A stretch of 37,860 nt of DNA, taken from a virus. Made by a program: the position numbers and the translations under genes. The stretch spans positions 1 to 37,860 of the IMG/VR virus record IMGVR_UViG_3300023281_001371; one strand, written 5' to 3'. This document shows, piece after piece, positions 8,564-36,309 of the stretch. The notes beneath the pieces were generated by a model that worked only from the letters and a program-made list of their open reading frames with translations, did no database searches and had not been told where the DNA came from. Numbering within the stretch: the first letter of the stretch is position 1; every line of letters starts with the position of its first letter.

Positions 8564-8572
8564 GTGACTGAA

Positions 8573-9427
8573 ATGACAAAGGCGCTAGTTGTGCTATCTG
8601 GGGGTCAGGACTCGACGACCTGCCTCTTCTGGGCCAAGTCGATCTTCAGCGAAGTTCATGCGTTGACGTTCGATTATGGTCAACGACATTCGATTGAGAT
8701 TGAAGCTGCTAAGCGAGTTGCTGCGCTGGCTGAAGTCGCTAGTCATGAAATTCTTGAGCTGGGTGGAGGCATCTTGCAGGGGAGAAGTCCCCTTGTGAAT
8801 CCTGATGTTGACGTTCAACACTACGCAAATCCCGCTGAGATGCCGGACGGCGTGGAGCCCACGTTCGTTCCTGGTAGAAACATTCTCTTTTTGACGATTG
8901 CTGCTAATCGAGCTTTTGTGAAACGGTGCGCCGCCGTCGTTCTGGGTGTGAGTCAAGAGGATTTCGGAGGCTACCCTGACTGTAGGGATAAGTTCATCTA
9001 CTTGATGAGGCAGGCTCTGAATGAAGGTCTCTATGGCAAGAATTCAGGCTTGGCTATCTACACTCCGTTGATCTTCAAGACCAAGAAAGAGACTGTGTTG
9101 TTGGCAGATAGTTTTGAGGGTTGTTGCGAAGCCTTGGCCTACACTCACACGTGCTATGATGGAGAATACCCTCCCAATCCTGCGAATCATGCGTCTATGA
9201 TCCGCGCTCGGGGCTTCAAAGAGGCTGGGTGTGATGATCCCTTGATTGTTAGGGCTAAGAGCGAGGGCTTGCTGCCTGCTGATTATCCGGGGCACGGTTA
9301 CATTGAGGCGAAGGTGATTATCGCGGTCGACGAGCTTGCTGTTGATGCAGATGATGTGAAAGAGATCAAGTCGCGTAGAGTCACTAAGCGTAAGAAGAGG
9401 AAGAAGAAGAATGATGAAGGTCAGTGA
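8573..9427 (+). CDS. queC: QueC, 7-cyano-7-deazaguanine (preQ0) synthase
   Basis: 284 residues from the ATG at 8573 (a GTG at 8564 would add three). It has the PP-loop [14 protein letters not shown], the [18 protein letters not shown] block, [11 protein letters not shown] and a TCYDGEYPP segment, all in QueC order. The enzyme converts 7-carboxy-7-deazaguanine to preQ0 using ATP and ammonia. The zinc site is unusual. Only Cys194 of the expected four cysteines remains, because the usual CGxCxxC that follows is replaced by an Asn/His stretch. The Lys/Arg-rich tail (about the last 18 residues) is longer than usual. It overlaps folE, forming the modification operon. Confidence 0.9.
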
Positions 9428-10832
9428 GTCCAAGGGATTGATTAGCGAGCATGACATTCGTAGGTTGATTTTCGCGTGCGGGGATGATGCTGATCGCGAG
9501 GGTATGAAGGAGACTCCTAAGCGATTTCTCAAAGCGATGGATTATTGGACGCGGGGATACGATGAGTCGGCTGAAGATGTGCTGAAGACCTTCGTTGATG
9601 GTTCAGAGAACTATGACGAGCTGGTATTTCAACGCAATATCCCCGTGTATTCTCATTGTGTCGTAGGATCAACCTTCGTCGAAACCCCGAAAGGTCGAGT
9701 ACCTATTTCATATTTGAATAATGGTGATTGGATCTACACCGTTGATTCCGATACTAGAGAACTTGGTTTAGTCAAATGTTCAAATCCACGAGTGACTAGA
9801 AGGGACGCTGAACTGGTGCGTGTAATCGCTGATACAGATACGGTTATCTGTACTCCAGATCATAAATTCTTGCTCGTTTCAGGCGACTGGGTGATGGCCC
9901 GTGATTTGCGGAATGGACACAGAATTCTTAGCCTCTATAAGTCAGCGATGGGGTCAGGAGAAGGGCCTTATTATTCCCAGCTTCGTGCAAAGCAGTGGGG
10001 TCATAGAACAGCTCCCATGCAAATCAAGGGTCAGAGTGTCTATCAGACTGAACACAGATTTGTTGTGTCTGCGCTCGAGCTCAATGGGTTTGAAAGGACG
10101 AAATGTCCTATCCATCATAAGAATGAGATGGTCTGGAATAACTCCCCAGAGAATCTTGAGGTTCTTTCAATTGCGGAGCATAATCGCAAGCATTCTCGAA
10201 CGCTGAAGCTGGCGAAAAATGCTAAGAGAATCAACGCTGCGGGGGATTCATCAAAAAGACTTAGTGTTCGAGAGAAACGGTCTAAGTCAGTCGCGAGTCA
10301 TTGGGATAAGATGACTGCTGACGAGAGACAAGAGCGTGGAGCCGCTATTGCGAGGGGCATTCATTCTGCGCGCAATCATGTCATTCTAGGTGTCGAGGAG
10401 CTTGAGCAGCGCGATGATGTCTGGTGTATGGATGTTCCTGATACGAATACCTTTTTCGCGAATGGTATGGCGGTGCATAATTGTGAGCATCACTTAGCTC
10501 CGTTCTTCGGTGTAGCTCACATCGCCTACGTCCCTGACAAACGAGTTGTGGGGCTGTCAAAGCTCTCTAGAGTACTTGAAGTCTTTGCGAGGAGGTTTCA
10601 GGTGCAGGAACGGCTGACTCAACAGGTTGCAACAGCTCTCTGGGAGAATCTCAAGCCGCAGGGAGTTGGGGTCGTCCTCGAATGCAGGCACATGTGTATG
10701 GAGAGTAGGGGCATTGAGAAGATGGGGACTGTGACTATCACTTCATCTCTCAAAGGTTGCATCAAAGATGAGCATGATGCGAGGAACGAATTCCTCGCAT
10801 TCGTCCGATCAGGTCAATCGACTCATATTTGA
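9411..10832 (+). CDS. folE: GTP cyclohydrolase I (FolE) interrupted by an intein
   Basis: 473 residues, of which about 198 are FolE. The N-extein (1-82) ends IPVYSH. The C-extein resumes at Cys358 in [10 protein letters not shown], the zinc-binding active-site motif, and ends with [11 protein letters not shown], which has the second zinc Cys429. The enzyme converts GTP to dihydroneopterin triphosphate, the first step to 7-deazaguanine. Residues 83-357 are an intein (see separate entry), so activity needs protein splicing. The start is ATG-ATG at 9411/9414, overlapping queC by 17 nt. Confidence 0.92.
9657..10481 (+). other. Intein with HNH homing endonuclease inside FolE
   Basis: 275 residues. 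Block A is [17 protein letters not shown]. Block B has TPDH in [19 protein letters not shown]. The C-terminal blocks read [20 protein letters not shown], with penultimate His and terminal Asn. Cys is +1, giving standard class 1 splicing residues. Between the splicing halves lies an HNH-type nuclease segment (about residues 231-263 of the whole protein), with paired His, then [10 protein letters not shown], then EHNRKH. The insertion point is immediately before the zinc Cys of CEHH. This is the usual habit of inteins: targeting an invariant active-site codon. Confidence 0.93.
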
Positions 10833-10835
10833 ATC

Positions 10836-11036
10836 ATGTTCTGGACCATCATAAGGATTCTGCTCTATTTCGTCGTGGCGATAGTCCACGCTCAATTCAT
10901 CTTTGAAGTGTGGACGTTAGATGTGGGCTTAGGATTCAAGTTGCTCGTATCGCTGTGGTTGGGGCTCGGACTTGGGCTGGCATTGGCGACGATGATAGGA
11001 GCAGCGACAAATCTACTGGGGGTGCGTGTTGACTGA
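10836..11036 (+). CDS. Small two-helix membrane protein
   Basis: 66 residues, mostly hydrophobic. It has two probable transmembrane helices, about 3-25 (IIRILLYFVVAIVHAQFIF) and about 33-58, which is Gly/Leu-rich. It starts 3 nt after folE and overlaps the next small frame. Function unknown. It could be a holin-like or host-membrane factor, but nothing proves this. Confidence 0.6.
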   Translation: MFWTIIRILLYFVVAIVHAQFIFEVWTLDVGLGFKLLVSLWLGLGLGLALATMIGAATNLLGVRVD

Positions 11037-11148
11037 CTATTCAGACTTGATTGAGTATTATCGGTCAGCGTTACGCTGGTCGCGGTTCTACAACTTCGCT
11101 CTCGTAGCAGCGCTTCTCTACTTCTTTCTATTCCATGGTACTGGTTGA
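11029..11148 (+). CDS. Small membrane peptide (TTG or GTG start)
   Basis: A 39-residue frame, MTDYSDLIEYYRSALRWSRF followed by a hydrophobic C-terminal helix (FALVAALLYFFLF). The start is TTG at 11029 or GTG at 11026; a G-rich run (11018-11022) provides a possible ribosome-binding site. It overlaps the gene before it and the gene after it, consistent with coupled translation. Function unknown. Confidence 0.45.
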   Translation: MTDYSDLIEYYRSALRWSRFYNFALVAALLYFFLFHGTG

Positions 11149-11812
11149 TAGCGTCGATAAGATTGTCGGGTCTTATTTCAAGCTCGTCACAATCGAGACA
11201 TTCGAATACAAGGGCAAGATCTATGAACCCAAAACCCTCAGAGTCTCTCCAGGAATCTTCAGAGGCTTTACGTGTCCTTCGGGATGCGGAGGCTGCTGTC
11301 CGAGGTTTTCTCTCGACTATCTCCCCTCTGAAAGTCGGCCCCCTGACAGTCGAATCAAGGAACGATGGGTTGTTTTTGATGGTCGACAAGTCAGGGTGTA
11401 CAGTGACCTACAAGCTGACCATGACAGTCATTTCTGCAGAAATCTCCAGCGAGACGACGGACGATGCGGGATCCACGGACGACAACCCTTCTCCTGCGAC
11501 TTTGAATTGATCCGCGCCATCACAACTGATGAGGAGTATCGACCGAATTGGATCACGACGCGGCTCTTTGGGAGGGGCTGGGCGTTCCTGAGAGTTGACG
11601 GAGAAAGAGGATCACTCTGCGAGATACTTCCGGTCACGCAGGAATCGTTACAGGACACTATAAGGAAGATGAAGAGGCTAATGGAATGGGCGGACCACTT
11701 CGGGCTGAAAACGTGCGTTCCCGATATCTTGCCCTGGCTGCGCTCAGGGCCACACGAGGAACCAATATGGGTCAACACACAATTCGCAAAAGTGAAGGCA
11801 GGACTACTGTGA
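11135..11812 (+). CDS. CxxCxxCC (YkgJ-like) metal-binding protein
   Basis: 225 residues. A cysteine cluster CPSGCGGCC (Cys47, 51, 54, 55) is followed by Cys101, Cys111 in RCGIHG and Cys121 in FSCDF. This is the pattern of the YkgJ/CxxCxxCC zinc- or iron-chelating family (Pfam PF03692). The family's biochemical role is not well known. Here it sits inside the 7-deazaguanine gene run, ending in the GTGA overlap with queF, which may point to a role in the modification pathway. That link is inferred from position. Confidence 0.75.
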
Positions 11813-12267
11813 GTAAATTAGAAGCGTTGCAAGAGAGTGCAGATAAGAACAAGAAGTCTTATCAGTATGACCAACCGAATTGGTTGCTGCTTGAGACTTT
11901 CACGAAGCCCCCAGGCAGGTCAACCTTAGAGCTCCACATCCAGGTTCCTGAGTTTACGTCGCTCTGCCCCATTACAGGGCAGCCTGATTTCGCGACTATC
12001 CTTATCGACTACAAGCCTGATAGGCTTTGTGTGGAGAGCAAGAGCCTCAAGCTCTATATGATGGGCTACAGGAACTACGGGGCTTTCCACGAGGCGTGTG
12101 TTGATTTGATGGCTGAGCATCTCATCAAGGTTCTTGATCCTCTTGAGTTGAAAATCACCGGAGACTTTGCAGCTCGAGGGGGCATTCCTTTTGAACCGAC
12201 CGTTAGTTACACGAAACAAACGACAGCTACTGCCATCACTGGATATGCCGACACCTCCCAGCACTAA
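11809..12267 (+). CDS. queF: QueF, NADPH-dependent preQ0 reductase
   Basis: 152 residues from the GTG at 11809, which overlaps the previous stop; an ATG at 11767 is an alternative. It carries [15 protein letters not shown] with catalytic Cys53 and Asp60, the family motif ESKSLKL (76-82), and [10 protein letters not shown]. The length matches the single-domain (B. subtilis type) QueF. The enzyme reduces the nitrile of preQ0 to the aminomethyl of preQ1 with NADPH. Its presence beside dpdA suggests that preQ1 rather than preQ0 is placed in the phage DNA. Confidence 0.92.
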
Positions 12268-13366
12268 TCACGTCGATCTTGTCCTCGATTCGGGCGCTTA
12301 TAGTGCCTGGAAGAAGCAGGAAGACCTCCCGATTGATGCCTACATCGCGTTCATCAAGAAGCATGAAGGTTGCTTTTCGCATGTAGTAAACCTTGATGTG
12401 ATTCCTGGTGAATGGGGAACCGTTCCTACTCCTGCTGAGGTTGATGCGTGCGCGACGCGAGGCTACAAGAACCTCAATATCCTGAAGCGCCGTGAAGGCT
12501 TTGATGTCATGCCTGTCTTCCACCAGGGAGAGGATTTCAAGTGGCTGAATTTACTCATCAGCGAAGGCTATGAGTACATTGGCATTTCTCCTTCGAACGA
12601 CAGGACTACAAAGCAGAAGCAGGTCTGGCTAGACAAGGTGTTCAGGTTGCTTTGCGGCACGAAGGGCTATCCCATCGTCAAGACCCACGGTTTTGGGATG
12701 ACCGCGCTTCCGTTGATGCATCGCTACCCTTGGTTCTCAGTTGATAGTGTGACCTGGTTGCTGATTGGAGGCTACGGTGGGATGCTCCTTCCAGTGAAGA
12801 ACTTCAAGGGAGAGTATGACTACACTCGCAATCCTGAAGTGATTCAGATCTCGGATAGGCAGCCAGGCAAGAATCAAGCACTACTTGCGCTCGAGCCGGG
12901 TAAGCATATTGACACTCTTGGATCAGGGATGCGTAAGTATGTCGAGGAGTACTTAGAGTCAGAAGGTCTTAGCCTTGAGGGTATGAGGACTGACTACGTG
13001 ACTCGACAGACTGCGGGCTGTAAATTCTTCAAGCGAGCATCAGATAGCTACACACCTCGACGCTATAAGCGAAAGGTTGTAGGCTTCTTTGATGGTAAGG
13101 AGAAGTATGAAGGGCGGTCAGAGCCGTGGGGTCAGATGAAAACTATCTTCACGCTGACGACGTCGCCTCAGCATTCTGGCATCCTAGAAGATGAGGGCAT
13201 CAAGGATCGTCTATTGACGTTCTATTACTTTCACAAAGCAAAGACGATGCCCTTCAACATTCATGACTATGTCAAGACAGGTCGTATTCCATATTCGCCT
13301 CGAGGGAAGGGCGATCCGAAAGAGCAACAACTGGCACTCGCAGGAGCTATAGATGCAACGCAGTAA
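12245..13366 (+). CDS. dpdA: DpdA, DNA 7-deazaguanine transglycosylase
   Basis: 374 residues from the ATG at 12245, overlapping queF by 23 nt. It shows the TGT-like barrel motifs of phage Dpd[10 protein letters not shown] (Asp15), VVNLDVIPG (Asp51), [15 protein letters not shown] and FSVDSVTW (Asp167). DpdA enzymes exchange guanine in DNA for a 7-deazaguanine base, protecting phage DNA from restriction. With QueF beside it, the likely base is preQ1. The C-terminal part (about 230-374) is less conserved and may select the target sequence. Confidence 0.88.
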
Positions 13367-14411
13367 ACTAGTAGAAGTATTGGCGCGGGTTCAGCCCGCA
13401 CTCTCGACGAAGGATTTTATTCCTGTCTTTAGTTGCTTCTGCTTCAAAGATAAGAAGGTCTACGCCTACAACGACATCATCGCTATTAGGGCTCCGATTG
13501 ATATGGAGCTCGAGGGTGGCATCCGGGGAAAGGTGTTGCTCGACTTCATGAAGGCTTCAACGTCTAATGAGGTTGAGTTGGTTCAGGGGAATGTCGGGGG
13601 AGTGACTGTCAAGGCAGGGAAGGGGTCTAAGTTGAAGCTTCCCATCGTTGACTCAGGGGAGTTCATCTTCAAGTTTCCTGATTATACAGAAGATGATCTC
13701 ATTGAGATTGAGTTGACTAAGGATGTTCTGGCTTCGTTTAGACGTTGCATAGTCTCGATGGGATATGATCCTGCCCATCCGTGGAGGCTTGGCGTGTCTG
13801 TGAAGATCACAGGTACGAAGCTCACCATGTATGCGTCAGACAACACGACGATGGCCCGGAGTTTGGTTGCAGCGAAGAATAATGTTGAAGACGAGGTCGT
13901 CATCGTGCTGCCCCCGAGGTTCTGTGAACTGCTGATCGCAGGAGCGAATAGAGACAAAGCAGAGATGCTATACGTCTCAGATAGTTGGGTCGTTGCGACG
14001 TTTGAATCAGGAGCCGAGCTCTTCGCTAAGACTATCGGAGCGCCTAACATTGATGCGTTCGAGCGTCAGTTCGGTGAAGTAGAATCCGAGGGAGCTATTG
14101 AGACTGTTGATTTGCCGTCGAACTTCGGTCCGACGCTTGACCGCGCGTTGGTCGTTCTCGCAACCGATCCTGATAAGCACGCGAAGCTTACAGTATCTGA
14201 CGGGCAGCTAGGGGTCTTCAGTCACTCAGCGTATGGAGAGGTTGATGACCATATCAGCCTTCCTGAGCATGATGATCTGTCCGTCATGTGCGCTCCTGAG
14301 TTGCTGAGACGCGGGCTTGATCATGTTGGAGGAATGTCAATTCTGGACGGCCAGTGCGTATACTTTGAAGGGGATATGTTCACCTACCTCGTAGCAGTGG
14401 TTACTGATTAG
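13353..14411 (+). CDS. DNA polymerase sliding clamp-like protein (beta type)
   Basis: 352 residues with the repeating β-α-β pattern of DnaN-like clamps, for example LVEVLARVQPALSTKDFIPV at the N-terminus, YAYNDIIAIRAPI, and LTMYASDNTTMARS in the middle. It is close to the bacterial beta length (about 366). It should ring DNA and tether the polymerase encoded next. The clamp loader ATPase is at 17369. Sequence similarity by eye is modest, but position and fold pattern agree. It overlaps dpdA and polA at both ends. Confidence 0.72.
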   Translation: MQRSKLVEVLARVQPALSTKDFIPVFSCFCFKDKKVYAYNDIIAIRAPIDMELEGGIRGKVLLDFMKASTSNEVELVQGNVGGVTVKAGKGSKLKLPIVDSGEFIFKFPDYTEDDLIEIELTKDVLASFRRCIVSMGYDPAHPWRLGVSVKITGTKLTMYASDNTTMARSLVAAKNNVEDEVVIVLPPRFCELLIAGANRDKAEMLYVSDSWVVATFESGAELFAKTIGAPNIDAFERQFGEVESEGAIETVDLPSNFGPTLDRALVVLATDPDKHAKLTVSDGQLGVFSHSAYGEVDDHISLPEHDDLSVMCAPELLRRGLDHVGGMSILDGQCVYFEGDMFTYLVAVVTD

Positions 14412-27926: not shown

Positions 27927-27933
27927 GTATAAT
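27919..27933 (+). promoter_or_regulatory. Promoter-like motif ACATGT-AGG-TATAAT ahead of the Ubl cassette
   Basis: Perfect copy of the recurring motif followed by TGGGGG. It lies upstream of the ARC-like AAA+ gene, so the ubiquitin-like cassette has its own promoter-like element. It also argues that the longer TTG start at 27933 of the AAA+ frame is wrong. Confidence 0.7.
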
Positions 27934-28001: not shown

Positions 28002-29846
28002 GTGACTGATTTCGATCCTGACCCTCAGCCAACTGATGTCGAGCATACAATCGGCAACTTGCCTGAGATCACGTATGAGATGGTAGAAGCGATGGAGAAG
28101 GCTCTACCGAGGAAGTCTCCTCGTCGCGCGCGAAAGCCCAACTCCAATAGCATGATGAAGATGTTTATGGATCCGGGCGTTGGCTTTGATACGAAGCGCC
28201 AACTGGCGACTCAAATCATGGCTAACAATGATGAAGGGGGGCTTCAGGTGCTAGCTGAAGTCTTCCTCAAGGCCGCTAATAGCGGTGAGGGCGAACACCT
28301 CCTTCAAGACAAGATGAAGGAGCTCAAAGAGTTCATTGAGATGTTGGGTTCAGGCCCCGTCAAGCTCGCCACATACCTTAGTAAGGATGCTGCCGGGCGC
28401 TGCAAGGTCGTCTTCGCAGACGGGTCTTACGCCTTTCCCACTTGCGCTGACAAGGCGCTTACTGCTGAACTCAAGGTTGGAGACCGCGTCTGGGCTGACA
28501 AAGCCGGGGCCATCCTGCTATTCAGAGATCCAGACACCAGCCTCTCTCTCGGAGAGCAATGCACGCTCGATCGGATCTATCCTGACGGTCGCTTGGATGT
28601 GACCTTCGGTTCCCATGATATGAAGTGTGTTGTTCGGGCATCAAATCTGCTGCTTGGACAGGTTGACGCTGGGGAGGCTGAAGTTGGTTCTGTGCTCATC
28701 GCTAGTATGCACAGCAAGCTGGCCTTCTACGTTGTGCCTCCTGAAGAGAAAATGGGCCACTTCAGATTCATTGCCCGCGATAACATTCCTGATGTTGTCG
28801 TTGACAGGGATGTCGGAGCGCCTGCCCCCTTTATTGGGGAGCTGGGGGACCATATCAGGCGGGAGATGACGAACCCTGGGCTGTCCGAGCGATACCGGAT
28901 GCGAAAGTCTATCTTCCGCATGTTGACTGGTTCGCCTGGAACCGGTAAAACCTTCAGCATCAACGCTACTTGGAACCTCATGTATCAAGTTATGGGCGAG
29001 GTTGTGGGTGTTGCTCCTGATGAGCTGCCGAAACGGGTGCTCCACCTGCGAGCGTCCGAAGTCAACAGCAAGTGGTTTGGTGAGTCAGATAAGAACATCG
29101 CTCAGTTCTTTGATGAAGTTGAGATGCTCGCAGCCGATCCCTACGTCGCTCCTGACGGCAAGGAATGGCATCTGCCTGTTCTTGTCATCGCAGAGGAGAT
29201 TGAGGCTATGGGCCGCAACCGCGGTGAAGATTCCATTCATGACCGCATCATGGCAACGCTCTTGCAGCGACTCGACCCTGGTAGGGACGCGTTCAAGAAC
29301 TACTGCGTCTGTCTTATCGCGACCAGCAACAATCCGCAATTGGTTGACCGTGCGATTCTCCGCCGGATAGGTGGGTCGATTACCCGGTTTGGTAGTCCTG
29401 ACAAGCACGTCTTCAGAGCTGTCTTGCAGAAGCAACTGCGTGATCTTCCTTTCGCAAAGGACAATCAACAGCAACGCACCCACGATAAGAATCGTGAGGC
29501 TGTCATTGAGATGTTGGTTGGAAGTCTTTATCGGCCGGGGGATGAACCGCTCGTGGAACTGACCTACGCTGGTCCTAACAAAGCGAAAGATTACAAGTTC
29601 AAACGGGATTTCATCACTCCTGCGTTGGTTGACCGGGCAGTTCAAGAGACCTGTCAAGCAGCCTGTAGAGCTGAGTGGGAAAATCAGGGCGACAACGCTG
29701 GGCTGTCTGGAAGTGACATCCTTGGAGCCCTGGAACAGCAGATTATCAATATCGCTGCGCTGGTTGAGCCCGGCAACGCAGATATGTACTTGACTCTCCC
29801 GGATGACGAGAGAGTTGTCGGTGTCAAGAGACTTCAAACTGTCTAA
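28002..29846 (+). CDS. AAA+ ATPase resembling proteasomal ARC/Mpa
   Basis: 614 residues from the GTG at 28002, which has GGAG upstream. A helical N-terminus (about 1-115) is followed by a β-rich OB-like region (about 118-245), then one AAA+ module. Walker A is GSPGTGKT (310-317), pore loop SKWFGES (356-362), Walker B-like VLVIAEEIE with Glu398 in place of the usual Asp, and finger region RAILRRIGG. The C-terminus (DMYLTLPDDERVVGVKRL) resembles the ARC/Mpa end. ARC/Mpa unfolds proteins for the bacterial 20S proteasome. The C-terminus ends QTV and lacks the GQYL-type docking tail. It heads the Ubl cassette. Confidence 0.72.
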   Translation: MTDFDPDPQPTDVEHTIGNLPEITYEMVEAMEKALPRKSPRRARKPNSNSMMKMFMDPGVGFDTKRQLATQIMANNDEGGLQVLAEVFLKAANSGEGEHLLQDKMKELKEFIEMLGSGPVKLATYLSKDAAGRCKVVFADGSYAFPTCADKALTAELKVGDRVWADKAGAILLFRDPDTSLSLGEQCTLDRIYPDGRLDVTFGSHDMKCVVRASNLLLGQVDAGEAEVGSVLIASMHSKLAFYVVPPEEKMGHFRFIARDNIPDVVVDRDVGAPAPFIGELGDHIRREMTNPGLSERYRMRKSIFRMLTGSPGTGKTFSINATWNLMYQVMGEVVGVAPDELPKRVLHLRASEVNSKWFGESDKNIAQFFDEVEMLAADPYVAPDGKEWHLPVLVIAEEIEAMGRNRGEDSIHDRIMATLLQRLDPGRDAFKNYCVCLIATSNNPQLVDRAILRRIGGSITRFGSPDKHVFRAVLQKQLRDLPFAKDNQQQRTHDKNREAVIEMLVGSLYRPGDEPLVELTYAGPNKAKDYKFKRDFITPALVDRAVQETCQAACRAEWENQGDNAGLSGSDILGALEQQIINIAALVEPGNADMYLTLPDDERVVGVKRLQTV

Positions 29847-29857
29847 GGAGAAACCAA

Positions 29858-30154
29858 ATGGAAGAGAAGAAGAAGAAGCAAGTTGAACAGTTCACTCCCG
29901 GCGCTGGGGGCAGCGATGATGCTGCTACAAGCGTTGTTGGTGACAAGAACGCAACCGTCAGCCACGGCCCTTACGCTGAGCAGTTGCCTGTCGCAGGGAT
30001 GACTGTAGGGGAGGTGCGAAAGCGCTTCGGTGATCGGCTTGACATCCATCCGGAGTCAACCCCGCTCATCGGAGGTAAGGCGGTCGACCCGTCTACTCGA
30101 ATCCAAGCAGGGGAAGTTCTCATGTTCATCCGACGCTCAGGAGAGAAAGGCTAG
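29858..30154 (+). CDS. Ubiquitin-like protein
   Basis: 98 residues. A disordered charged N-terminus (about 1-32) precedes a β-grasp-like domain: ATVSHGPYAEQLPVAGMTVG, a helix EVRKRFGDRL, then TPLIGGKAVDPSTRIQ and AGEVLMFIRR. It ends SGEKG, with Gly as the last residue, so it needs no processing before activation. PRTRC protein C-type ubiquitin-likes end in a similar GxKG. It lies between the ARC-like ATPase and the E2-like gene and would be the modifier. Confidence 0.75.
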   Translation: MEEKKKKQVEQFTPGAGGSDDAATSVVGDKNATVSHGPYAEQLPVAGMTVGEVRKRFGDRLDIHPESTPLIGGKAVDPSTRIQAGEVLMFIRRSGEKG

Positions 30155-30157
30155 TCA

Positions 30158-31069
30158 ATGGCAGCACCTCATATGCTCACCATTGTTGGTGACCAGATCA
30201 CATCAAAATCACCCGAAGGGAATCTACATGCAGCTTCTGTGAAGGAGTTCGTGCAGATTGTCACGAAGAGTCAAAAGGTTGTCGAAGACCTGATTCTTCC
30301 TGACGGCGTGAAGGCGGTTCTGCCTATGCGTCAAGGGCTTGTGGTGATTCACGAAGTTCCCCCACAGCTCCACGAGTTCAAGTGGATCACTGATAAGTCA
30401 GCTAAAGCTCGGGGAGCAGATAATGACTACAAGACAGTCAAGGTTGCGCTTCCTTACGTAGAGGTTTTCAACTTCTACCATAGAGCCCCTAATGGGAATC
30501 TCGTCATGAGCGGGGAGCATGAATGCTTCTTCATGAATAAGTCAATTCAAGAAGATGGCTTTGACTCTCAGCTGATGTTCCCAGCTCTACTCAACGTGAG
30601 TAAGCTCGAGGGTATTCCTGGAAGCTCGCACAGATGCCATGCTTGGATCTGTACTCAGTATCTAAGCCCCGCTGAATACAAATTGTCTTTGGCTGATTCA
30701 AAGAATGACCAGAAGGTTATTCACGCCGGGCTGGGAGCGTTGCTTAGACACTTGTTTGAGTCAGGGTTCAATATGTCTTCTGACTACAGCGAGATGGCGT
30801 CTTGGTTCACCGAGACCTGTAAAGCGAAGATTGATCCGAGGTTGAAAGACATTCATACCTGGGTTGAAGCTTCTGAGAAAGATCCTTTGTTTGCACTCGA
30901 AGTTCCTTGGCTGCCTGTCAAGAAGACTATCAGACAGCTAGTCAACTACAGAATCAAGAAACAAACTGGAGTAAACGTAGAGCATGCACGAGACCTGCTA
31001 CGACTGATGTTGCAGAGTAAGACATTCAAGAAGAAGGCGAAACTGCCGAAGGAGAACAATGGAGACTAA
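30158..31069 (+). CDS. Putative E2-like conjugating protein (PRTRC-B-like)
   Basis: 303 residues. The central part (about 55-170) fits an E2/PRTRC protein B pattern: β-strands GLVVIHEVPP and VALPYVEVFNFYHRAPNGNL, then LMFPALLNVSK in the place of the E2 HPN turn, then RCHAWICTQYL. Cys160 or Cys165 is the candidate acceptor. The C-terminal third is helical. The family match is weak by sequence and rests largely on neighbours: a Ubl before, JAB and E1 after. It overlaps the JAB gene by 11 nt. It would take the Ubl from the E1 and pass it to a target. Confidence 0.6.
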   Translation: MAAPHMLTIVGDQITSKSPEGNLHAASVKEFVQIVTKSQKVVEDLILPDGVKAVLPMRQGLVVIHEVPPQLHEFKWITDKSAKARGADNDYKTVKVALPYVEVFNFYHRAPNGNLVMSGEHECFFMNKSIQEDGFDSQLMFPALLNVSKLEGIPGSSHRCHAWICTQYLSPAEYKLSLADSKNDQKVIHAGLGALLRHLFESGFNMSSDYSEMASWFTETCKAKIDPRLKDIHTWVEASEKDPLFALEVPWLPVKKTIRQLVNYRIKKQTGVNVEHARDLLRLMLQSKTFKKKAKLPKENNGD

Positions 31070-32480
31070 GTTGCTACTAAACGATTCGGAGGGCTTTGAA
31101 TGGCCCAAGGATTCAATCTTCTACGCCTTGGGGTCAGATGGCCTCTATCTGGGACGTAACAACAAGTTCTACAAGAGCCTTATCAAGACTAAGGGTGGGC
31201 CAGGAGAACTGGAACCCCTCAAGGCTTCGCTTCGTCCACGATTCCCGAAGATCCCTCAAGAGATGTTTGAGAGGGTTGCGGGTTTTTTCGCCGATGTGGG
31301 GGAGCTTCACGACGCTGAATCGCAATGCTTGTTCTACTGGAATCCGACTGATGAGAAAGTCGAGGTTGTCGTTCCTGAGCAGAAGACGACCAAGAAAAGC
31401 TACTCAGTCAAGTATGAGCAACCGATTGATCTTCCCCACGAGTGGTTGCTGTTCGGCGATGCTCACAGCCATGTTCATCTGTCAGCGTATTGCTCTGGAA
31501 CTGATATAGCTGATGAAGAGCACTTTCCAGGCTTGCACTTCGTCTTTGGTCATATGGATCAGGATACGATTCAACTCCATTGCGAAGCGGTCGTAGATGG
31601 TTCAAGATTCACTATTGATCTTGACCACGTGGTAGAGGGGTTCGAGGGCTTCTTGTTCGACTATCCTAAGGAGTGGATGGAGCGGGTTGAAGTTATCGAG
31701 TATTCCTATCACTCGGTGTACGACGGCAAGAAGTATGGTGGAGGCGGTTTCAGCGACCACTATGGGGGTGACTTCGGGTTCGGAGGCTCAATTCCTCCGC
31801 TGGATATTGACCCACCAAACTACAAGCACGAGTGGCGAACTCCAGAGTCGCAAGGATGCCCTCCGTGGCCGATGGGGAAGTACGACTCTCCTGAGTGGAA
31901 GAAGATGAAGCGTCTCCGCGATGCTTGGATGGAGAGGAACGATCCTAACACTGAGTATAAGAAGGAGCGTGAAGAGTATTCAGAGAAGCGACGAGCCGCT
32001 TATGCCGCCGCGTTGAAGAAGCAGCATCAAGACGAAATCAATGATGCCCGCACAGCTGCTACTGACTCAGATGCTGACGCTAGTATGGGGTTCAGCCAGG
32101 CGTATGAAGACATGCTTCAAGAGGATGCTCTTATAGGAGATTCCATTGATGTGGATGTGAAAGCTGAATGGGAAGCGCTAGCTGACGCTTTTGATGGAGA
32201 TGACCAGCCACTAACTGAGCAAGATGATGATCTTGACATGGATCTTCCCGAAGATATCATGAAAGAGCGGGAGCTCGCACTCAATAACCTGGCTGAAGAC
32301 AAGCGGTATCTTGCCGAGCTGGATAAGAAACTGAAGAAGGCCAAGGCCAAAAAGAAGAAGGCCAAGGCCAAGATTCGAAAGAAGCAGATCAGGAAGGTCG
32401 CTCCTAGTGACAAAGAGAAGAAGAAGAAGAATACTTCGTCAAAGAGGGAGATCACCCGCTGGGGTACAGGATCCAAGTAA
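31059..32480 (+). CDS. JAB/JAMM metalloprotease (putative deubiquitinase-like)
   Basis: 473 residues. A textbook JAMM motif lies at His136-x-His138-x7-Ser146-x2-Asp149 (HSHVHLSAYCSGTD), with a candidate general-base Glu at 82 or 87. This motif binds zinc and hydrolyses isopeptide or Ubl-C-terminal bonds. Beyond the domain (after about 260) is a long charged extension with acidic stretches and Lys-rich coiled coil (LKKAKAKKKKAKAKIRKKQ). Since the Ubl already ends in Gly, deconjugation is likelier than maturation. Confidence 0.85.
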   Translation: METKLLLNDSEGFEWPKDSIFYALGSDGLYLGRNNKFYKSLIKTKGGPGELEPLKASLRPRFPKIPQEMFERVAGFFADVGELHDAESQCLFYWNPTDEKVEVVVPEQKTTKKSYSVKYEQPIDLPHEWLLFGDAHSHVHLSAYCSGTDIADEEHFPGLHFVFGHMDQDTIQLHCEAVVDGSRFTIDLDHVVEGFEGFLFDYPKEWMERVEVIEYSYHSVYDGKKYGGGGFSDHYGGDFGFGGSIPPLDIDPPNYKHEWRTPESQGCPPWPMGKYDSPEWKKMKRLRDAWMERNDPNTEYKKEREEYSEKRRAAYAAALKKQHQDEINDARTAATDSDADASMGFSQAYEDMLQEDALIGDSIDVDVKAEWEALADAFDGDDQPLTEQDDDLDMDLPEDIMKERELALNNLAEDKRYLAELDKKLKKAKAKKKKAKAKIRKKQIRKVAPSDKEKKKKNTSSKREITRWGTGSK

Positions 32481-33299
32481 ATGAAGAAGCCGCCGGTTCC
32501 TAACCCGGAGCTCCTCGACACCGTCAAGATCATCGGTCTTGGCGGGGTCGGGGGGCTGGTGGGTCGATATCTATTCCAATTCATGGCGTCGTTTGATGCC
32601 CCAACTCGCTTGGTGTTCATCGACGGCGATTCGTTCGAACCCAAGAACGCGCAGCGAATGTTCTTCTCAGAGGAGGGCATGAAAGCAGAGGTCGCAGTCA
32701 AAGACATCTTAGCCCTCGTTCCTGAGTCAGGCGTCAGTCTTGAGTCAATCGAGTCGTACGTCAACAATGACAATATCAAGGATCTGCTGTTCGATGGTGA
32801 AGTCATCATCCTTGCAGTCGACAATCATGCAACTAGGAAGCTGGTTAGTGATTACTGCTCCAAGAACCTCAAGAACTTCTGCTTGATCTCAGGCGGGAAC
32901 GATGGAGCTGGGGAAGATGCTGAGGGTTATGAGCTGCGAGGAACATACGGGAACGTCCAAGTCCATCATCGTAAAGACGGTGTAGACCAGACGCCTCCGA
33001 TTACAACCTTCCATCCTGAGATTGACAATCCAGCAGACAAGTTGCCTGATGACTTGGATTGTGTTGAGGCCTTGAAATCAACGCCTCAGATTCTGTTCGC
33101 GAATATTGCAGCAGCGTCTGTGATACTCAACGCGACATGGCTTTATAGCTGTGAATCGCTCCACTATCCGGAACTGTGCTTTGACATCTTTGACGGTGTC
33201 ATGCGGCCGGTTCCACTACCCTGTATAATCAATGACAAAGACTACAATGACAAAGACTACAAAGAAAGCAAAGAAGAAAGTACGCAAGTCGCGAGCTAA
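32481..33299 (+). CDS. ThiF/E1-like Ubl-activating enzyme
   Basis: 272 residues. Nucleotide-binding IIGLGGVGG is at 17-25. The family contacts VFIDGDSFEPKNAQR (Arg59), AVDNHATR (Asp114, Arg119) and Cys194 in DDLDCVEAL follow, then PQILFANIAAASVI. This matches the ThiF of PRTRC cassettes. It should adenylate the Ubl C-terminal Gly and carry it as a thioester. It begins right after the JAB stop (no gap). Its 3' end overlaps the ParB-related gene by 68 nt and contains a 15-bp tandem repeat. Confidence 0.88.
   Translation: MKKPPVPNPELLDTVKIIGLGGVGGLVGRYLFQFMASFDAPTRLVFIDGDSFEPKNAQRMFFSEEGMKAEVAVKDILALVPESGVSLESIESYVNNDNIKDLLFDGEVIILAVDNHATRKLVSDYCSKNLKNFCLISGGNDGAGEDAEGYELRGTYGNVQVHHRKDGVDQTPPITTFHPEIDNPADKLPDDLDCVEALKSTPQILFANIAAASVILNATWLYSCESLHYPELCFDIFDGVMRPVPLPCIINDKDYNDKDYKESKEESTQVAS
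33231..33260 (+). repeat. Tandem 15-bp duplication in the E1/ParB overlap
   Basis: AATGACAAAGACTAC occurs at 33231-33245 and 33246-33260. It encodes NDKDY twice at the E1 C-terminus and MTKTT twice at the ParB-related N-terminus, giving two possible starts (33232, 33247) for the latter. Probably a slippage duplication. Confidence 0.85.
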
Positions 33300-34167
33300 A
33301 ATTCATACCGAGCCGTCAGTGGCTATTGTGACATTCACTCCTGAAGAGTGTATGATGCATCTTGAGGCAGCTGAGGCTGTGAACGCAAACCCGCGACCGC
33401 TTAGTCAAGTGAGGGTCGCGCAATATACTCGTATGCTCCAAGAGGGGGATTGGGAGTTCAACGGCCAGTCAGTTTCGTTCGACAAGAACGGGCACCTGGT
33501 CAACGGCCAGCATCGGTTCTGGGCTAGCGTTGAAGCCAATCGTCCCATCACAACCGTCGTCGCCTACAACGTCGAAGGTGCGCTGTTCACTGACCAAGGA
33601 GCGAAGCGAACCGCTAGGGATGTCTTGAAGGATCGTTTCGGTGCAGTTACTGGAATGGCAGTCACGATCTCCCGCGCTGTTATCTCTGAGAGTCGTTGCG
33701 GCCTCTACAGAGCTATCGCTGGCGGTCTTAGAGAGGCAAACCCCCACATCAAAGAGGTTTGTGAGCGCATTGAGACCGACCCTCAAATTGTCAGGAGCGC
33801 AGAACTTGCCCGCAAGGGATTCACAGGGATTGCTCCTAGCAGCGTTATAGGCATCGCGCATTACTTCGCAACGAAGACTTGGGGAGCCAAAATCTCCGAT
33901 GAATTCCTTGAGATCATGAGGACGGGGGACGCGCCGATGGGCTCTCCGCCTAGAACGCTACGCGAGCGTCTTATGCGAACGCGTGAGTCGTTGCCTCGTA
34001 CTGATGTCCTCGCGTTGACTATTCGTGCTTACAACCTCTTCGCTAGAGGGAAGGACTGGAAGAAGGCTGTTCTCGCTGGCAAGAACGCACAGAAGTGGAA
34101 CGCGAAGTCTTACCCCACGTTCATCCCGATCGCGAAAGCGCGTCATGGCCGCAACAACTATGCGTAG
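33232..34167 (+). CDS. ParB/Srx-fold protein, ParB-related
   Basis: 311 residues. After a basic N-terminus (about 1-24), the core has the ParB-like pattern: NPRPLSQVRVAQYTRMLQEG, then FDKNGHLVNGQHRFWASVEA, then FTDQGAKRTARDVL. The rest is helical. Phage proteins with this core are common and may act as nucleases or nucleotide-using enzymes. Here it directly follows the ThiF gene, echoing the ParB-related, ThiF-related cassette. The ATG at 33232 overlaps the E1 end; 33247 is an alternative. Confidence 0.75.
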   Translation: MTKTTMTKTTKKAKKKVRKSRAKIHTEPSVAIVTFTPEECMMHLEAAEAVNANPRPLSQVRVAQYTRMLQEGDWEFNGQSVSFDKNGHLVNGQHRFWASVEANRPITTVVAYNVEGALFTDQGAKRTARDVLKDRFGAVTGMAVTISRAVISESRCGLYRAIAGGLREANPHIKEVCERIETDPQIVRSAELARKGFTGIAPSSVIGIAHYFATKTWGAKISDEFLEIMRTGDAPMGSPPRTLRERLMRTRESLPRTDVLALTIRAYNLFARGKDWKKAVLAGKNAQKWNAKSYPTFIPIAKARHGRNNYA

Positions 34168-35666: not shown

Positions 35667-35933
35667 ATGTGGAATTCAACGCTGATACATGTGATTCAGG
35701 ACATGAAACCTGAAGAGTGCGTTTGTGCTTGTGAAGCGGCGTCGACTGGTTGGGCTGGAGCTTCAGTTCTTCTTGGTTTCTTCTTTCTTCTTGGATTCAT
35801 CGTATACATCGGTTCTACATCGGTTCGAAAACCTAATGGCAAAAGCAGTCACTTGTACCCGCAGACTTCAGTTCTGCGCCGGTCATCGCGTTCACAAGCA
35901 CGAGGGCAAATGTCGCGCGCTACATGGACATAA
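35667..35933 (+). CDS. Possible small membrane protein overlapping queD
   Basis: 88-residue frame with one hydrophobic segment (about 30-50: ASVLLGFFFLLGFIVYIG). Its last 33 codons overlap queD in another frame, which is long for this phage. The N-terminal half, up to the membrane segment, is the more credible part. Confidence 0.35.
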   Translation: MWNSTLIHVIQDMKPEECVCACEAASTGWAGASVLLGFFFLLGFIVYIGSTSVRKPNGKSSHLYPQTSVLRRSSRSQARGQMSRATWT

Positions 35934-36309
35934 TTATGTTGGCTATTTCACTGCCCAAGCGAAGAGCGTGGGCCAGATGGAAGGCAAACATCTTGATATT
36001 CTAGGCAGGGTCATTGATTTCGGCGTCTTGAAAGAACGCATCGGCGGCTACATAGACGAGTTCATTGACCACGGATTCATTGTTTGGATTGAAGACCAAG
36101 AAGTGATTGAGGCACTGAAATTAGTCCTGAATCAGAAGGTCTACATGATTAGTGAGAATCCGACAGCAGAGAATATCGCAAAGCATCTACTCGACGACAT
36201 CTGTCCAAAAATCTTTGAGGATAGCCCGATTGAAATCATTGGGATCGTCTTAGAAGAGACTGAAAACTGTTTTGCTGAAGCTAATAATGCAGAGGCGCGA
36301 GCGACATGA
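35836..36309 (+). CDS. queD: QueD, 6-carboxytetrahydropterin synthase
   Basis: 157 residues from ATG 35836; an upstream start at 35725 is less likely. The zinc ligands His17 (FCAGHR), His30 and His32 (CRALHGHNY), and the catalytic Cys26, follow the QueD order. The enzyme converts dihydroneopterin triphosphate to 6-carboxy-tetrahydropterin, the second step after FolE. It lies 23 kb from queC/queF/dpdA. A promoter-like motif at 35320 is upstream. The next gene starts in its stop codon (ATGA). Confidence 0.88.
   Translation: MAKAVTCTRRLQFCAGHRVHKHEGKCRALHGHNYVGYFTAQAKSVGQMEGKHLDILGRVIDFGVLKERIGGYIDEFIDHGFIVWIEDQEVIEALKLVLNQKVYMISENPTAENIAKHLLDDICPKIFEDSPIEIIGIVLEETENCFAEANNAEARAT

Follow-up and report, generated by a model that had tools for sequence, protein, structure and literature searches.

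Why would a bacterial virus carry the enzymes of a ubiquitin-like conjugation pathway directly beside an ATPase related to the unfoldases of proteasomes? This question is raised by a single viral record of 37,860 bases, IMG/VR record IMGVR_UViG_3300023281_001371, the whole of which is referred to here as the window. The original prediction for this DNA described six consecutive same-strand genes at 28002-34167, encoding an ARC/Mpa-like AAA+ ATPase, a ubiquitin-like protein (Ubl) ending in SGEKG, an E2-like protein, a JAMM protease, a ThiF/E1 and a ParB-related protein, preceded by a promoter-like motif. We found six densely packed open frames on one strand in this interval, as described. The cassette proper consists of the following five adjoining genes (28002-33299):

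28002..29846, + strand: ARC/Mpa-like AAA+ ATPase, 614 amino acids (aa); GTG start, with the open reading frame (ORF) opening at TTG 27933
29858..30154, + strand: Ubl, 98 aa; identified by a profile built without the window (window-free), an AlphaFold2 model and Foldseek
30158..31069, + strand: E2-like conjugating enzyme (Prok-E2_D type), 303 aa; window-free profile and Prok-E2_D family
31059..32480, + strand: JAMM/JAB metallopeptidase; PRTRC_A, window-free profile and invariant JAMM residues
32481..33299, + strand: ThiF/E1-like Ubl-activating enzyme, 272 aa; PF00899 and window-free profile

The spacing between these genes is, in order, 11, 3, -11 and 0 bp, and an AAGGAG lies before the ATG of the Ubl gene.

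Recurrence of the cassette in other phages

All five genes are also found in a second phage, and the possibility that the cassette is unique to the window was rejected on this basis. The second phage, IMGVR_UViG_3300015259_000002 (G060), is a record of 45,377 bp that was found by scanning with the E1s of smaller cassettes. It is probably circular, since its ends share a 123-bp direct overlap. Its cassette genes lie on one strand:

2426-2112: Ubl, 40% identity to the window
2109-1279, same strand: E2, 31% identity
1282-404, same strand: JAB, 37% identity
407-1, continuing at 45376-44885, same strand: E1, 43% identity
44883-43189, same strand: ARC-like ATPase, 35% identity

In the order Ubl-E2-JAB-E1-ARC, these genes almost abut and form a single run; the ATPase gene is at the opposite end of the cassette from its place in the window. 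G060 bears terminase, portal and capsid genes, with the cassette upstream of them on the same strand, and no window ORF outside the cassette gave a match to it. Such a joint recurrence in a phage with no other detected relationship to the window makes it very probable that the five genes function as one unit. The original prediction had pointed to an ARC-like unfoldase attached to a PRTRC-like Ubl cassette and had proposed looking for the same genes side by side in other phages. The conserved run in G060 bears out both the attachment and the co-location, and a second type of AAA+ accompanies the cassette in 15 viral loci and on one contig (L092) of a metagenome-assembled genome (MAG).

The 15 viral loci, which include near-duplicates and represent roughly ten distinct loci, have the order E2-JAB-E1-Ubl-AAA. 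Their AAA+ is CDC48/IetA-like and lies directly downstream of the Ubl in 14 of them. The order on L092 is AAA-E2-JAB-E1-Ubl, again with a CDC48-like AAA+, and among the E1s of alignment A12 that of L092 is nearest to the window E1 (46%). Since ARC-like and CDC48/IetA-like AAA+ proteins both attach to the cassette, the Ubl pathway has apparently been joined to an unfoldase at least twice. The presence of two kinds of AAA+ on one cassette is strong evidence, from gene context, that the Ubl pathway supplies an unfoldase with substrates.

Cassette relatives are widespread in large phages; others were found in named phages and on plasmids of Bacillaceae. Of the related phages, two very large ones (G032 and G033) have both a cassette and a separate full-length ARC, about 95 kb apart. 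In the 15 loci with the second AAA+ type (L175-L189), the AAA+ is similar to IetA from the anti-phage system IetAS (for L178, PADLOC E value 4e-30), and one or two extra E2-like genes often lie a few kb downstream.

An ATPase of ARC/Mpa architecture

The ATPase matched the TIGR03689 proteasome ATPase model over residues 102-589 (E 5.7e-32), compared with 1.8e-10 for CDC48 and 4e-6 for PAN. Its best PDB relatives were Mpa/ARC structures (E 4e-23 to 2e-19 over residues 103-584), with alignments spanning the OB region, the AAA core and the C-terminal domain. A profile made from two sequences, the window and G060 ATPases, was aligned by hhalign with ARC over 461 columns (window residues 103-611, E 4.5e-32), but with CDC48 over the AAA domain only (195 columns, E 1e-18). 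All three comparisons favour ARC/Mpa, so the original assignment of the first gene stands and the ATPase stays within that group. Further, an ARC N-terminal profile matched the N-terminal part of the protein at E 1.2e-9, with shuffled controls never under about 0.05, and the G060 orthologue matched PF16450 (Proteasomal ATPase OB) above the Pfam cut-off. The OB region, at about residues 130-255, precedes the AAA core (PF00004, E 6e-17), and the ARC C-terminal domain follows it. Walker A (GSPGTGKT) is at 310-317, the pore loop is KWFG, and sensor 1 and the Arg fingers are present in the alignments; Walker B has EE instead of DE. The first ~100 residues are unique and unrelated to ARC. Of the coiled coil, just a short segment (about 103-119) aligns, with the end of the ARC coiled coil, which in that family binds Pup.

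Judged by its sequence, the protein has the ARC/Mpa architecture yet is not an orthologous proteasome ATPase. It scored 111.1 bits against a curated TIGR03689 cut-off of 504.75 bits, and ARC runs on to a GQYL tail that is present neither in the window ATPase (..RVVGVKRLQTV) nor in that of G060 (..SVVSVETRRA). The absence of GQYL suggests that the ATPase does not dock on a 20S proteasome. Because this tail is missing, stand-alone remodelling, or transfer of substrates to another protease, appears likelier than unfolding in partnership with a host proteasome.

The window AAA+ gave no match by tblastn against phage records, and a viral-contig scan using the AAA+ alone gave none either. Assorted viral contigs (L118-L133) have an ARC-like AAA+ gene with no Ubl cassette nearby.

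The conjugation genes

The other four cassette genes were subjected to a leave-the-window-out test, in which profiles made from relatives only were run against each window protein and 100 shuffled copies of it. All four were regained (Ubl 2.6e-12, E2 9.7e-19, JAB 1.3e-52, E1 4.8e-54), with no matches among the 100 shuffled copies of each. What is observed in this locus is the identity of the genes, their intact catalytic residues and the linkage of the five.

The second gene had been read as a Ubl ending in SGEKG, and both the profile and a fold model confirm this. Its beta-grasp core spans residues 28-92 approximately, and its C-terminus is ..MFIRRSGEKG. In the AlphaFold2 model, the predicted local distance difference test score (pLDDT) is about 91-96 across residues 31-90. 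A Foldseek search of the PDB with this model returned mostly ubiquitin and ubiquitin-like proteins as top matches (best E 1e-3, probability 1.00), and the protein is thus predicted to be a beta-grasp modifier with an exposed C-terminal Gly. The ..KG tail is kept across the family. Of the 59 family Ubls detected, 20 extend one residue (often Cys) past the final KG, which would fit a need for maturation; the window Ubl stops at KG and that of G060 in KGGR.

The JAMM protease and the ThiF/E1 were likewise confirmed. The metallopeptidase part of the JAB occupies residues ~1-220, matches PRTRC_A (E 7.7e-9) and is followed by a long charged C-terminal extension; Glu87, His136-x-His138, Ser146 and Asp149 are invariant. 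The E1 matches PF00899 (E 1.9e-15) and PRTRC_ThiF (3e-5), as well as ThiF/MoeB models. It has the glycine-rich GLGGVGG, Arg59 and a candidate thioester cysteine, Cys194; the GxGGxG, Asp48 and Cys194 are invariant across the aligned relatives.

The proposal that the 303-residue protein is E2-like was upheld by profiles; the structure search, discussed below, retrieved no E2 from the PDB. Cys165, within WICTQ, is invariant in all 47 aligned sequences, and 33 of these 47 family members match Pfam Prok-E2_D (PF14460; best 8.9e-15). One family E2 also matches PRTRC_B. The model (pLDDT 78) contains a helix, a beta-meander, a Cys loop and helices, and its Foldseek matches in BFVD are phage proteins of unknown function. 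The E2 fold is therefore assigned by homology alone. A different Cys position, taken from an earlier five-sequence MAFFT alignment, was dropped when larger alignments fixed the catalytic candidate at Cys165. A MAG contig (L096) carries E2-E1-Ubl at 8902-11082 in a polysaccharide-gene neighbourhood, with no adjoining JAB or AAA+, and its E2 shares the WICTQ of the window. A viral-contig scan with the window and L096 E2 pair gave no matches.

Comparison with known systems

Ubl-JAB-E1-E2 cassettes of the PRTRC/'group 6d' type have been described in plasmids and bacteria (Iyer, Burroughs, Aravind 2006, PMC1779556). The window shares with them a Ubl with a conserved C-terminal Gly, a separate Prok-E2_D-type E2 with an invariant Cys, a JAB with the JAMM motif and a stand-alone E1/ThiF, in a compact operon on a mobile element. 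In contrast to them, it adds the ARC/Mpa-like AAA+ and has its own Ubl tail (..SGEKG). The original prediction had counted five of the genes as known PRTRC parts. By homology this holds for the JAB (A), E2 (B), Ubl (C) and ThiF; it does not hold for ParB, and the window sequences fall far under the curated NCBIfam PRTRC cut-offs. The six genes, the one that follows them and QueD gave no match to PRTRC D, E or F. With these cut-offs unmet and no PRTRC ParB detected, sequence comparison indicates that the cassette is homologous to PRTRC/'6d' cassettes but is not a PRTRC system.

Ubl cassettes of other phages, including Bacillus phage KLEB27-3 (OM634661 gp194-199), Vibrio phage D69, Salmonella phage Arash and the large-phage loci L009-L012 and L039-L082, have homologous E2, JAB and E1 genes and a Ubl with a similar ..G.KG tail. 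They differ from the window in having no AAA+ adjoining the cassette, and most of the large phages among them have a long fused E2 of about 800-880 aa. KLEB27-3 encodes a tandem poly-Ubl (L003, 2676-3425) with four near-identical repeats ending in ..KAGVKG. In many of the large-phage loci L009-L012 and L039-L082, a second E1-like paralogue lies downstream of the Ubl at a distance of ~0.1-1 kb, and L009, L011 and L012 have a large RNA polymerase beta'-like gene nearby.

The coupling of a modifier to an AAA+ with OB region, AAA core and ARC C-terminal domain recalls the mycobacterial Pup-proteasome system (Mpa/ARC). However, the modifier in the window is a beta-grasp Ubl served by E1, E2 and JAB rather than Pup with PafA/Dop. 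In addition, the window ATPase appears to lack most of the coiled coil and has no GQYL, and no proteasome gene was identified in the window. In the archaeal small archaeal modifier protein (SAMP) system, a Ubl, an E1-like enzyme, a JAMM protease and PAN/Cdc48 act on one substrate, with PAN2 and Cdc48c both needed (PMC4895103). This system (UbaA, JAMM, PAN/Cdc48, 20S) resembles the window in its set of Ubl, E1-like enzyme, JAMM and proteasomal-type AAA+, which in the window too would act together on tagged proteins, but it is cellular, has no dedicated E2, uses PAN or Cdc48 as its AAA+ and ends in the proteasome (PMC4895103). Bil and type II cyclic-oligonucleotide-based anti-phage signaling systems (CBASS) share the E1, E2 and JAB logic and the context of phage conflict, but differ in E1-E2 arrangement and in effectors. 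PADLOC defence models gave weak E1-E2 matches only (E 2.6e-5) and none for the Ubl, E2 or JAB. A limited search of the open-access literature found no earlier description of what appears to be an ARC-linked phage Ubl cassette.

The sixth gene and the upstream motif

Two further features flank the cassette:

33232..34167, + strand: ParB-like phage protein (phrog_5931), overlapping the end of the E1 gene; not a conserved cassette part
27928..27933, + strand: TATAAT hexamer 5' of the cassette, weak and without a -35 box; seen in the sequence only

Neither supports the role first proposed for it. The sixth gene, thought to encode a PRTRC-type ParB, matched phrog_5931 (E 2.4e-35) and reached just 0.085 with the ParB-like phrog_1033; it has no PRTRC ParB or NCBIfam match. 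Since phrog_5931 is widespread, with matches in 62 records of unrelated phages of many hosts, and since the ParB-like gene is absent from all 44 related cassette loci, it was rejected as a part of the cassette. As to the presumed promoter, the lone TATAAT is not among the consensus matches of our promoter scan, and the 8 promoter-like matches in the region are at the level of chance (6.6 +/- 2.4 expected).

Proposed mechanism and its alternatives

Based on these observations, we propose that the cassette is a self-contained, phage-borne pathway for Ubl conjugation and protein remodelling, most likely serving to remove host or defence proteins during infection. We give this reading a probability of roughly 0.55. 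The reactions and partner specificities that follow are, like this purpose, ones that we infer, the individual steps from the established enzymology of the E1, E2, JAMM and AAA+ families. The E1 (ThiF) would adenylate the C-terminal Gly of the Ubl (..SGEKG) and carry the Ubl on Cys194. The Ubl would then move to Cys165 of the E2, which would attach it to target lysines with no dedicated E3. The ATPase, presumably as a ring, would recognise the tagged targets, with its N-terminal region and OB ring as the probable contact sites, and thread them through its pore, leading to unfolding or to extraction from complexes. The JAMM protease would trim Ubl precursors where needed and recycle the Ubl. 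Because the GQYL tail for 20S docking is absent, the ATPase would most likely act as a stand-alone segregase (like Cdc48/p97) or pass its substrates to another protease. We regard it as an even question whether E1, E2, Ubl, JAMM and a tail-less ARC/Mpa unfoldase form a mobile, proteasome-independent ubiquitin-segregase unit that is common to unrelated phages, with a second AAA+ family recruited independently.

If this proposal is correct, some bacteriophages hold a small counterpart of the ubiquitin-p97 pathway of eukaryotes, one that tags, extracts and recycles, and Ubl tagging is coupled to a dedicated unfoldase in viruses of bacteria. It would also hint at how proteasomal ATPases and ubiquitin signalling could be linked without a proteasome, and the set of five proteins is small enough to ask which host or phage proteins are removed.

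Several results weigh against the proposal. The tail of the window Ubl is a single ..KG rather than GG. The E2s of the window, L096 and G060 have no direct Pfam match, and Foldseek of the E2 model against the PDB retrieved no E2 structure. The ATPases of the window and G060 formed a very long branch in an AAA-domain tree and could not be placed; the kinship with ARC therefore rests on domain architecture and full-length profiles. ARC-like AAA+ genes are also found in phage contigs that have no cassette, and none of the 44 cassette loci has an AAA+ resembling the window ATPase within 10 kb. Given that most cassette phages have no adjacent AAA+, gene content indicates that the unfoldase is dispensable for some versions of the cassette.

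Removal of host or defence proteins is our first choice of purpose because the window cassette sits among replication-type genes, with no structural gene identified. The main rival is virion assembly or interference between phages. Here conjugation would be real, but its target would be a virion or tail protein and the ATPase would serve assembly; the proteins concerned could belong to the phage itself (maturation, quality control) or to a competitor phage (superinfection interference). Modification of phage tails is known from bacterial Bil systems, and the G060 cassette lies upstream of packaging and capsid genes on their strand. Homologues of the E2 and E1 in Salmonella phage Arash are labelled 'structural protein', although this label is annotation only. 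Lambda gpI/gpK form a Ubl/JAB pair in tail assembly (conference report PMC12908700; proposed in PMC1779556). In the window, however, the neighbours of the cassette are small early-type genes and genes for replication and recombination, and the window proteins scanned included none identified as structural. We consider a virion target possible but doubtful.

It is less probable still that the Ubl carries sulfur in the manner of ThiS/MoaD, with ThiF charging it and JAB releasing it, for thiolation of a nucleotide, tRNA or cofactor, perhaps in connection with the 7-deazaguanine DNA-modification genes of this phage. JAB-ThiF-Ubl sets do occur in sulfur metabolism (PMC1779556), the E1 matches ThiF/MoeB models, and QueC, FolE, Tgt-like and QueD genes are present in the window. 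However, sulfur transfer offers no obvious function for an E2-like protein whose Cys is invariant or for a recurrent AAA+, and the E1 retains its conserved candidate thioester Cys. The link to deazaguanine is further disfavoured because G060, which has the cassette alone in common with the window, has no match to these genes.

A similarly small chance, lower than that of a sulfur carrier, is given to the ATPase being a Cdc48-like chaperone of the phage replication machinery, with the Ubl marking phage replication or recombination proteins, not host proteins, for timed removal. The window context (DnaB, PolA, clamp, UvsX, RusA, SbcCD) is consistent with this, as is the presence of SbcC near the cassette in 16 relatives, but the G060 cassette adjoins packaging genes instead, and the substrates are putative only. 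Least probable, and already disfavoured, is a PRTRC plasmid-type maintenance module that includes the ParB-like gene and has the AAA+ as an incidental neighbour: the JAB, ThiF and one family E2 resemble PRTRC_A, PRTRC_ThiF and PRTRC_B, respectively, and a ParB-like gene comes after the cassette, but G060 has the five genes again, ARC among them, a second AAA+ type is likewise recurrent, the PRTRC cut-offs are unreached and the phrog_5931 gene occurs in many other phages while missing from the relatives of the cassette.

Genome context

Phage replication genes in the window include DnaB, PolA, a clamp, a clamp loader, UvsX, a gp32-like single-stranded DNA-binding protein and SbcCD. The window is probably a piece of a larger phage genome, since the nearest relatives of its DNA polymerase are in Vibrio and Edwardsiella phages of ~71-79 kb (33-35% identity). 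Genes for 7-deazaguanine synthesis and insertion lie at 8564-14411 and 35836-36309 and encode QueC (Pfam E 9e-54), FolE, a Tgt/DpdA-like transglycosylase (phrog_887, E 2.7e-47) and QueD. This set suggests that the phage DNA is modified. The FolE (GTP cyclohydrolase) frame, at 9411-10832, contains an in-frame HNH endonuclease-like segment at about residues 202-286, as would be seen in an intein or homing insertion.

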